NCBI RefSeq assembly: GCF_011397635.1
Contig: NC_064770.1
Location: forward strand, 27,049,603 to 27,113,602
DNA from: Epinephelus fuscoguttatus
Lineage: Eukaryota; Chordata; Actinopteri; Perciformes; Serranidae
Direction of reading: 5' to 3'
Length of the DNA: 64,000 nucleotides
Both the position numbers and the translations under genes were made by a program. Below are positions 3,631-19,961 of the stretch, piece after piece. The notes under the pieces were generated by a model that searched no databases, was not told the DNA's origin, and worked only from the letters and a program-made list of their open reading frames with translations. The stretch's first letter is position 1; the number at the start of each line of letters is the position of its first letter.

Positions 3631-3706
3631 CTTTGGAGATGATGCATCATTATAAACATCTGACTACCACTGATGGTGTTTGTATTCATACTGTCTGATC
3701 CAGAAG
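3631..3706 (+). ncRNA. snord41: Box C/D snoRNA, SNORD41-like copy 1
   Basis: Box C is ATGATGC (3639-3645), D' is CTGA (3660-3663), C' is TGATGG (3671-3676) and box D is CTGA (3695-3698). A short TGGA/TCCA terminal stem closes it. The guide before box D contains GTATTCATACTGT. This closely resembles the guide of human U41 (SNORD41), also hosted by TNPO2 (from memory), and complements 28S rRNA ACAGUAUGAAUAC. The fifth-nucleotide rule places the 2'-O-methyl group on a U, as expected for U41. It lies in the inferred 5'-UTR intron of tnpo2. Confidence 0.8.
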
Positions 3707-3852
3707 ACCACTTGCTTATCCATCAGATCTACTTTAGTAGCCTCAGAATCTGAATCCACTTTTTATATTATAAGAATATACTGGGAAAAAAATATACAGG
3801 ACTAAATTGATGTGTATTCATTTTTGTTATGCATGTGCATATGTTTTTCAGG

Positions 3853-6800
3853 ATGGAGTGGCAGCCAGATGAGCAGGGACTTCAGCAGGTCCTCCAACTG
3901 CTCAAAGACTCACAGTCGCCCAACACAGTCACACAGAGAGCTGTCCAACAAGTATCCTACAACACTGCAGTCTGAGGATGTGCATAACGAAGCTAGTCAA
4001 TAATATTTTCCCTAAATGAATTGTGCCTCTCTAATTGTCCACATGATTTTGTCCTAGGGAAAAGGGATTTTAATTAGTACCAAATTTTATTGTTTTTACT
4101 GCCAATCTGCCGTGTTATCGCTTTGACAATTGCAAATACATACTTTTAAATCTCTTCACACGTTTAACTCTGTTCATGAACAGAATTGTAACAAAGCTAC
4201 AACAATTTTGGTTGATAGAAAATACATTTGGGTGAGCCACCCATAAATATACATGTGGAAAATACTGGAATATTAGAACAGATATCAAAGGATAGTTACT
4301 TTAGTGGAAACTCAAAGTGAAATGTTCCTTAACTGCCATGCTAGAAACTTGAACAACTCAACCAATTCCCCGACTTCAACAACTATCTCATCTTTGTTCT
4401 CACACGACTCAAAACTGAAGGTGAGTTGCCTGATTTTTTTTTTTCTCTCTTTCAGTGATTTATAACACGACAAGGTTATAGATCCACAATATTGAAAGTT
4501 AAACCTATTCTCCCCATAAACTTAAAAGCTGAATGAACTGTGTGTCACACTTGACTGTCGGTAGAGAAAAAGGTGGGTGTGATGAAGGACCCTCTGATTT
4601 AGTTCAGTATGTATGAGTAATACTAGAGCTGCCCCCAACTCAGAATTTCCCTTGTCAACAAACAGTTGTCATTTAGAGCCATTAGACGATTAGTCGCCCA
4701 CATGTTTACGATATTATTTTGATTATTGAATGATATATTTTGGGCAGGGCAACACAATGGCTTGAGTTGAAGGTGTGAGAAAGAATAGTATCAGTAACAT
4801 TGTTAACACTGTGCTACATTACAGAGAAATACAAAACCGTACTAATGAACCTTCATTAATATAGGCCTATATTTTATCTACAAGTGCACGTCACACACTG
4901 AGCGAGCCGCCTGTTAATGACGCTGTGGGCTAATGGGCATGTAGCTACTTCCATGTTTCAGATGATGCGTCATGTTTGTAGTCGACCAATGAAGATGAGT
5001 TTACATATCACCTTGGGTTCGTCCTTCACCTTCTCAAAATGATCCCACACTTTGGATTTCCTGCCCGACATGTTATTAACTAGCCTGTGGAATAACCGCA
5101 GGTACCAGCCCTGGAAATTAGGGGCCGAACACATGCCGTGTCTTTAATACATACATCTGTTAAAGAATAAAGCCAAGACAAACACTATTGTGTTGTTAAC
5201 TCTTTTGTTGAGAGATTGTAGCAGCACAACTTTAGTCTTCTAGATTAATATAATAGATAAATGCACAGGCCTGAAAATACGTTGAATGAATGTCTTCTGT
5301 TTTAAAGTAATGCGTAGTTACAGGCTTGCACGACCTTTCTAAGATTATCCCGATCAGTTCCACACAGTGAAAAGATCCAAATCAACAAAATGTTGGATTT
5401 GGTGCATTTATACTGGTTATCAGGATTCATTTGTAGAGTGTAAAAAAACTTATTTGTACCTTGCTTCCATCTACTTCCTCTCCCCAGATGAGCCGACTCG
5501 CTCTCTGAGCGGTCTGATCCTGAAGAACAATGTTAAGGCCCACTACCAGAACTTCCCCTCAGCTGTGGCTGACTTCATCAAGCAGGAATGTCTCAACAAC
5601 ATCGGTGATCCCTCACCGCTCATCCGTGCCACCATTGGTGAGTCTGTGTGTTTTGTGGGCGTTGTGTTAGCCTGTGGTGATAATTACGTTTGTGGGCTAG
5701 TTTCCCTTCACACACCCAATATACCCACCTCCCTTTGTTTTCCTTCCCTCTGGAGATGATGCATATTTAACACCTGAGTGTCCGTGAAGGTCTTTGTATT
5801 CATACTGTCTGATCCAGAGCTGCTGTGAAGGCAACTGCTCATGAGCTCGTTAATTATAAATCACTGTCTGAAGTCTGTTATCTTTGTTTCTTCTCTCACT
5901 CCTCCAGGCATCCTGATCACTACTATTGCCTCCAAGGGAGAGCTTCAAACATGGCCTGAGCTGCTGCCTCAGCTCTGCAACTTGCTCAACTCAGAGGACT
6001 ACAACACCTGCGAGGTCTGAACTCACCCTGCTCTTTTCTTTCTATGAGATAAAAGTAGTACTGTCATTACACACCCACACCTTTGCTCAGGTTATAGGTA
6101 TGTGCAGCCACACTGGGAATTATGAGGTCACTAAACATTTTCATTTTCCTCAGGTTAGATGTGCTGCCCTGTCCAGCTTTGCACTTCACATTATAAACAT
6201 TGCAGCAAGCGTTGTCTGCTGAGTTTTGGACAAGTGTAACCACACTTCTGAACTGTTTTGGCTAGCTATTGCCCTCTGTGTCTAGACTACAGGCAAATAA
6301 GATGCATATTTCACTTGCATGTCTAAAGCAACAGATGTGCTTTTACTTTAATCTGTGCAGCTCTCAGGCCCGCATCTTACCTGCATCTCACGGGAGTAAA
6401 CACAACCTGAAGTATTTGCTTCAAGTCTAGTTTTTTTTTTTTTTTTTTTTTTGACAATATGTGCGAACTGAAGAAAAATTATATTTATCTACATTTTGTA
6501 ACCTAGTGAACTGAGCCAAAGAGTAGGACACTGTGCTCGAGACAGACAGACTCAAGACACGTTAATTTCTTCTTGGATATTTAGGAGCCACAGTATTGTA
6601 ACATACACTGCATTTACAACCACTACAGAACCTCACTGCTTACCATTCCTCCTCTGATCGCCAGCAGCTGTCTGCCTTGAGCACAGCCACTGTGACTCAC
6701 TCCACCACACACTCGCTACCCACACACGCTGCACTCCCAGGTTCTGAAATTTGGTGCCTGTTGACTTAACATGAATCTCTACACGGTAGCACCGACATAA

Positions 6801-19803: not shown

Positions 19804-19885
19804 CCCAACCTCCCCTTTGTCCACACAGGATACCAACCTGTTAGGTATGTTCAGCAAACATGCAGCCCACCCCCTCAGACCCCCC

Positions 19886-19961
19886 TCTGGAGATGATGAA
19901 AACCCCAGCTCATTGATATGCAATGATACACTTTGTTCCCAAATTAATGTTCTGATCCAGA
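19886..19961 (+). ncRNA. Box C/D snoRNA, tnpo2 family B copy 8
   Basis: The stem is TCTGGA/TCCAGA. Box C is ATGATGA (19893-19899), D' is TTGA (19913-19916), C' is AATGATA and box D is CTGA (19952-19955). The D' guide is AAAACCCCAGCTCA. It lies beyond the tnpo2 stop codon, in the inferred 3'-UTR intron. It is a sister of copy 7, sharing downstream flank. Confidence 0.82.

Follow-up and report, generated by a model that had tools for sequence, protein, structure and literature searches.

Introns of tnpo2 in a ray-finned fish carry two families of box C/D snoRNA-like units, one with a predicted target in the 28S peptidyl-transferase centre

We analysed a window of 64,000 nucleotides from Epinephelus fuscoguttatus (NC_064770.1, positions 27,049,603 to 27,113,602), in which the gene tnpo2 carries repeated units resembling box C/D small nucleolar RNAs (snoRNAs) in its introns. 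tnpo2 is intact, with 23 coding exons joined via GT-AG splice sites to give a single open frame of 889 codons. The exon-joining script returned two open solutions (889 and 888 amino acids), which lie one codon apart at one acceptor. A human transportin-1 sequence, used as tblastn probe against the window, gave 22 sense blocks that span all 23 coding exons and one further antisense match (E 1.2), which was taken as chance. Furthermore, the N-terminal 317 amino acids of the tnpo2 product match transportin-1 chains in the PDB (E 1.7e-181). The gene is presumably TNPO2 rather than TNPO1, going by C-terminal residues. An intron is also predicted in the 3′ untranslated region (UTR), where both donor and acceptor were found and the junction lies 41 nt past the stop codon. 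Intron numbers used here take one unmapped 5′UTR exon as exon 1.

A total of 12 snoRNA units or remnants were located in 12 different tnpo2 introns (1, 4, 5, 6, 8, 10, 12, 13, 18, 21, 22 and 24), 12/12 on the sense strand (Table 1). Three are SNORD41-like and nine belong to a second family, referred to here as family B (six well formed, one with a weak stem, one decayed and one split). The original prediction had described tnpo2 as a host of multiple snoRNAs of two families, and this description is borne out; its count and grading of the 12 units also stand, following Rfam comparison, repeat finding, alignment and covariance modelling.

The Rfam SNORD41 family (gathering score 41) was listed at all three of the sites proposed earlier, and two of the three matches, at 3633-3703 and 7551-7617, score above gathering. 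The match at 5750-5817 falls narrowly short of this value. The D guide adjoining box D in this unit is identical to the guides of the other two, and the unit is called SNORD41-like from this guide despite the sub-gathering score. With the D-box guide retained, the SNORD41-like units would direct methylation of a U in 28S ribosomal RNA (rRNA), which we take to be the equivalent of human Um4276. The human SNORD41 host gene is TNPO2. The table of one paper likewise pairs SNORD41 with TNPO2.

Table 1. Coordinates in the window of tnpo2, the intronic units and the elements of family B.
Feature	Position	Strand	Evidence
tnpo2 coding region, host gene	3853..19803	+	GT-AG spliced open frame, tblastn blocks, PDB match to transportin-1
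SNORD41-like unit 1, 5′UTR intron (intron 1)	3633..3703	+	RF00588 45.2 bits, above gathering
SNORD41-like unit 2, intron 4	5749..5818	+	RF00588 40.6 bits, just under gathering 41; conserved D guide
Family B, well formed, intron 5	7102..7173	+	97.5 bits with family B model; 12-nt guide match
D′ guide, 10-nt core ACCCAGCTCA, first family B unit	7119..7128	+	pairs with large subunit rRNA TGAGCTGGGT
GTTCC after box C′, proposed extra base-pairing	7151..7155	+	invariant 7/7 formed units; 0/2000 column shuffles pair as well
SNORD41-like unit 3, intron 6	7550..7618	+	RF00588 42.6 bits, above gathering
Family B, split remnant, intron 8	8487..9051	+	flank-plus-unit matches to 7102/10258; 19.7 and 13.1 bits with family B model
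Split copy, 5′ part with flank	~8487-8539
Split copy, 3′ part with flank	~8995-9051
Family B, well formed, intron 10	10258..10329	+	97.5 bits; identical to 7102-7173
Family B, well formed, intron 12	11459..11529	+	95.1 bits
Family B, weak terminal stem, intron 13	13499..13572	+	89.3 bits; guide pairs nine, one G-U
Family B, well formed, intron 18	16543..16614	+	93.6 bits
Family B, decayed, intron 21, abuts 5′ splice site	18628..18702	+	75.4 bits (among the model's own sequences); 16/49 functional columns changed
Family B, well formed, intron 22	18968..19043	+	91.9 bits
Family B, well formed, predicted 3′UTR intron 19845-21236	19886..19961	+	91.9 bits; donor and acceptor

According to repeat finding and alignment, family B comprises eight whole units and a ninth that is split by ~400-450 nt. 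A covariance model was built from the eight whole units, and returns these at 75.4-97.5 bits, scores that match by construction. The same model gives 17.8-25.5 bits at the three SNORD41-like units, and 19.7 bits (E 0.043) and 13.1 bits (E 1.5) at the split-copy halves 8505-8565 and 8957-9008, neither of which convinces alone. Beyond these units, a search of both strands of the 64-kb window returned nothing above 15.0 bits. Stronger support for the split copy comes from matches that include its flanks, with both parts 81% identical to 10258 (E 1e-9 and 1e-10) and respectively 72% (E 0.001) and 81% (E 9e-12) identical to 7102. The insert that separates the two parts (~8540-8990, ~400-450 nt) has a 9-nt inverted match near its ends, 8581-8589 AGAGGAACT and 8987-8995 AGTTCCTCT, and self-comparison found no second copy of it in the window; it is possibly a small mobile element. 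In intron 21, the decayed unit directly adjoins the 5′ splice site (exon end 18626); donor sequence occupies the place of the 5′ stem, hence this unit has none. Units 7102 and 10258 share all 72 nt.

On the family B units, all Rfam families stay below their own cut-offs. The best scores below cut-off are 33.1 bits for SNORD103/SNORD85 (RF00188, gathering 45) and 29.3 bits for U54 (cut-off 35), while SNORD41 is listed at five units with 23.6-29.4 bits, short of its gathering score. Membership of SNORD103/SNORD85 was rejected on this score. Exact searches found no family B sequence in viral or prokaryote contig collections and no match to the SNORD41 guide of the window in the viral collection, results that say nothing about fish. 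Judged by sequence, family B is a C/D snoRNA family unmatched in Rfam, and its host gene is crowded.

All seven formed family B units (the six well formed and 13499, with its weak stem) have intact boxes C (RTGATGA) and D (CTGA) next to the terminal stem, and six of the seven have the 6-bp stem TCTGGA/TCCAGA. An internal motif consisting of a D′ box TTGA, with the first C missing, and a C′ box RTGATAC is present in 7/7. The TTGA is found at one register in 8/8 aligned units, with the preceding bases being CTCA in six, CTTA in one and TTTA in one. Functional columns were defined as the gap-free columns in the stem, the boxes and the 10-nt D′ guide. Among the formed units, 6/43 functional columns are variable (excluding the GTTCC element described below) compared to 15/22 columns elsewhere (Fisher p 1.8e-5). 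Differences summed over the 21 pairs, which are non-independent, amount to 41/1023 in functional columns (GTTCC included) and 155/487 elsewhere. This conservation pattern is lost in the decayed unit. Family B looks like a genuine single-guide C/D snoRNA.

The extra units could instead mostly be snoRNA pseudogenes, i.e. recent duplication or conversion copies of which one or two are active and the rest unselected. Two of the nine family B copies are clearly dead, and the identical 7102 and 10258 units with their differing flanks weakly fit recent conversion. Moreover, many copies of human snoRNAs that have canonical targets are not expressed (PMC10234308). However, the divergent units vary at few of the box, stem and guide columns counted above and at 0/5 GTTCC columns, compared to the majority of columns elsewhere. 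Such avoidance of boxes, stem, guide and GTTCC by sequence changes is not what drift or conversion would produce by itself, and we consider it unlikely that the extra units are mostly pseudogenes.

Complementarity of at least 9 nt to the large subunit (LSU) rRNA lies directly 5′ of D′ in 7/7 formed units (9-12 nt, one with a G-U pair). The contiguous pairing of the D′ guide ACCCAGCTCA with LSU TGAGCTGGGTTT extends to 12 nt in three units, 10 nt in two and 9 nt in one, with 13499 as the seventh pairing nine with one G-U. By chance, any one 10-mer would occur 0.007 times over the 7.2 kb of rRNA. The LSU letters used for this comparison are found exactly in an IMG/VR contig (L001:5-82), and the first 300 bases of L001 match Rfam LSU_rRNA_eukarya with 131 bits. 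The zebrafish somatic peptidyl-transferase centre is 100% identical to that of human (PMC5513064). The D′ guide complementarity supports the earlier claim that the second family is aimed at the 28S peptidyl-transferase centre.

When the guide is laid from the D′ box, position +5 corresponds to the C equivalent to yeast C2948 in 8/8 aligned units, the identity of this C being derived from a published table (PMC8817022) and the LSU order. The predicted nucleotide lies 3′ of the SNORD29/snR71 site, at a distance of two nt. The family B D′ guide predicts methylation of this C within the LSU peptidyl-transferase segment. We take the C to be E. coli C2579, six nt from U2585.

Published tables place known guides at this position in other eukaryotes. 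In one of these (PMC8817022), the methylated A next to the site appears as yeast Am2946 and human Am4493 (U29). The C two nt further on is entered as Cm2948 for yeast (snR69) and as Cm3281 for Dictyostelium, and the columns for human and Arabidopsis show a dash. A Neurospora table row reads Cm2906, snR69 twice, snoR69Y and a dash (PMC2780460), for columns that neighbouring rows suggest are two yeasts, plant and human. For plants, the two tables thus differ (snoR69Y in PMC2780460 compared to a dash for Arabidopsis in PMC8817022), and the human entry is empty in both. For zebrafish, a review gives 60 28S sites and a somatic-specific 28S-Cm3916 (PMC8393311), which may or may not be the C2948-equivalent site. 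Literature searches, covering passages of some of the papers found, gave no fish guide or methylation assignment for the C2948-equivalent C, and passages of PMC13228274, PMC11649923, PMC8797249 and PMC3511168 yielded nothing on it either.

Given that the target segments overlap, family B might represent a back-up SNORD29 that methylates the neighbouring A (yeast A2946). In Neurospora, a single snoRNA (CD27) is assigned to the two sites, in each case through D′ (PMC2780460), and weak Rfam SNORD29 scores of 24.8 and 25.5 bits (gathering 48) are seen at two family B units. The constancy of the TTGA register in 8/8 aligned units argues otherwise, since the five-nucleotide rule then gives the C and not the A two nt away. 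Furthermore, irregular D′ boxes in yeast move the site to +6, which is the opposite direction (PMC5389607). SNORD29 membership was rejected on the D′ register and on 25.5 compared to 48 bits, and a back-up role for family B appears improbable.

The sequence following box C′ contains GTTCC as five invariant columns amid variable sequence in all formed units. This element is complementary to rRNA ending one nt 5′ of the guide target (GGGAAC-G-TGAGC), and the sixth base (T in four units, C in three) can in either case pair with the rRNA G. Segment columns were shuffled together over the six distinct unit versions, and none of 2000 shuffles paired as well with the nearest 9 nt, while 3/2000 did so with the nearest 22 nt, a significance that is optimistic because GTTCC was noticed before testing. 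A scan of L001 in 106 windows of nine bases ranked the GTTCC partner place first, jointly with the next window, one base along. We propose that GTTCC provides extra base-pairing, as an accessory guide element. In yeast snR13, a D′ box lacking the first C plus extra base-pairing leads to methylation at two neighbouring sites (PMC5389607). As family B has both of these features, the C and the next U are both candidate sites; with the first C absent from the D′ TTGA, it is also possible that the U is methylated instead.

Taken with a probability of about 0.8, our preferred explanation is that tnpo2 hosts two box C/D families, that family B guides methylation in the 28S peptidyl-transferase centre, and that the units arose by intragenic copying followed by selection, with two copies having died. 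From the observed units, host, conservation pattern and complementarity we infer processing, methylation, the route of copying, and that the conservation is due to selection. Splicing plus trimming by exonucleases would free one unit per intron. On the rRNA stretch ...GGGAAC-G-TGAGCTGGGTTT..., the D′ guide ACCCAGCTCA, with up to 12 paired nt, and the GTTCC(C) after C′ would pair with adjacent segments, so that by the five-nucleotide rule fibrillarin would sit on the yeast C2948-equivalent C. The units would have multiplied inside the gene via copying of ~70-115 nt, with selection subsequently acting on boxes and guide.

Several observations weigh against this explanation. Processing of snoRNAs works best at a distance of about 70-80 nt from the 3′ splice site. 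Only 3/12 units (5749, 13499 and 18968) are found at 66-89 nt, and the remaining 9/12 at 102-1710 nt, hence their processing may be lowered. The D′ TTGA departs from the consensus CTGA, and the SNORD41 guide reads CAT in 3/3 copies where the Rfam consensus has CGU, i.e. an A instead of a G. This predicts an A-C mismatch if the fish 28S has the letters assumed here for the target stretch, for which the viral contig collection gave no match. Conservation was measured among paralogues within one gene, which are not independent, and the GTTCC test was post hoc, with shuffles that do not keep dinucleotides. Extra base-pairing made no difference to methylation in the case of yeast U18 (PMC5389607). 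In human and Xenopus, some snoRNAs are reported to match rRNA positions at which no modification has ever been found (PMC8522698). Among human snoRNAs with a canonical rRNA target, 211 lack expression, and >87% of these have another copy (PMC10234308). Hence, complementarity is no proof of modification.

The irregular D′ box and the side-by-side accessory pairing suggest that two adjacent nucleotides may be methylated, with dosing by copy number. That tnpo2 of ray-finned fish carries a multicopy vertebrate guide, which may act on two adjacent nucleotides in a dose set by copy number, for the ancient site of the C2948-equivalent C is a tentative proposal to which we would give slightly less than an even chance. 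If true, some vertebrates modify a catalytic-centre nucleotide that is apparently bare in humans, and the guide for this nucleotide has no matching family in Rfam 15. The near-identical units beside two dead copies would furthermore make tnpo2 a compact place in which to study snoRNA birth, copying and death.

Seven pairs of units were compared for the extent of homology. Flanks are unrelated past a few nt from the terminal stem, with the exception of 7102/10258 (~26 nt downstream, 4 mismatches) and 18968/19886 (~10-15 nt downstream). Between 7102 and 10258, differences are found at 4/26 nt downstream, 7/17 upstream and 0/23 non-functional unit columns, giving a Fisher p for unit compared to flank of 0.11 with the downstream flank only and 0.006 with both flanks, the limits of which were set by eye. 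The identical units with differing flanks weakly hint at recent conversion.

In most of the seven pairs, homology ends a few nt or less beyond the terminal stem, as would also be expected if the copies were snoRNA retroposons (snoRTEs), spread via reverse transcription. This was checked for 10 of the 12 units, the decayed and split units being left out. An A run of more than 3 nt in the 40-nt 3′ flank was seen in 0/10, and no direct flank match exceeding 5 nt in 9/10; unit 19886 has a match of 7 nt, a length equalled or surpassed at 50/2000 random places. Within the window, moreover, all copies are in one gene and in one orientation. Retroposition was rejected in view of 0/10 A-rich tails and 1/10 longer-than-usual flank matches, and is given a low probability. 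Copying by duplication within tnpo2 is the simplest route. A possible descent of family B from SNORD41 is suggested by the shared stem and by the family B model scores of 17.8-25.5 bits at the SNORD41-like units.

The occurrence of one unit per intron, some near splice sites, could alternatively reflect a role in cis, e.g. on tnpo2 splicing, rather than as rRNA guides. Roles of snoRNAs in cis are reportedly discussed in a review (PMC11028025). This would leave the rRNA guide and accessory complementarity unexplained, and we regard it as highly improbable compared to the guide function favoured here.

Intragenic amplification of snoRNAs has precedents. A chicken study proposes that intragenic duplication might be the main force behind novel snoRNAs in that species, with GAS5-like hosts as a hotspot, and mentions zebrafish and frog without showing the data (PMC2653536). 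Human GAS5 hosts 11 snoRNAs, and 79/581 human host genes carry more than one snoRNA, the vast majority with at most one or two others (PMC10234308). A further survey finds low C/D copy numbers in placental mammals, and counts four SNORD87 genes for zebrafish compared to a single one for human (PMC3349704). The statement in the original prediction that such amplification is unusual was therefore overstated, given that intragenic amplification is known (PMC2653536, PMC10234308), while it holds that the number is somewhat unusual for a protein-coding non-ribosomal host. The target of family B is somewhat unusual too. The tnpo2 amplification is of a known kind, towards the upper end.

Comparison to known systems places family B closest in predicted target to yeast snR69, Neurospora CD27, Dictyostelium CD15 and plant snoR69Y, where the site is identical (yeast C2948, Dictyostelium C3281, Neurospora C2906; PMC8817022, PMC2780460). 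The likeness to this group is by predicted target alone; family B is, in contrast, intronic and multicopy in a vertebrate-type host gene. The SNORD29/snR71 guide overlaps the same segment, with its site Am4493/Am2946 two nt away (PMC8817022), but the family B D′ register differs and thus specifies another nucleotide, in line with the Rfam score of 25.5 compared to 48 bits. SNORD41 shares with family B the TCTGGA/TCCAGA stem, seen in 2/3 SNORD41-like units, and the box D flank, whereas family B has another guide and uses D′ instead of D. Hosts of the GAS5 type resemble tnpo2 in their many intronic C/D snoRNAs and intragenic duplication (PMC2653536, PMC10234308), although GAS5 is non-coding with mostly different snoRNAs, while tnpo2 encodes an intact transport receptor and carries copies of two. 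Guides of the snR13 type have a D′ without the C of CUGA and an accessory guide region, as in family B (PMC5389607). The target differs, and methylation at two sites is established for snR13 but only a candidate property in family B.

Other features were noted by eye in the window. Intron 12 contains a piece resembling a non-LTR (long terminal repeat) reverse transcriptase on the - strand (~11900-13180), with a YADDTQ motif, and open stretches like pieces of a LINE-type element occur at 36369-38840 on the - strand (NYRPIS in 37202-37645). Simple-repeat-like DNA is found at 51160-52006, where the open frames of one strand consist mostly of K, R and E, and those of the opposite strand of F, L and S. 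The IMG/VR contig L001 (1-3711) begins with eukaryotic LSU rRNA, and from about base 125 displays frames that by eye resemble phage-type recombinase and helicase; it is likely a chimeric assembly.

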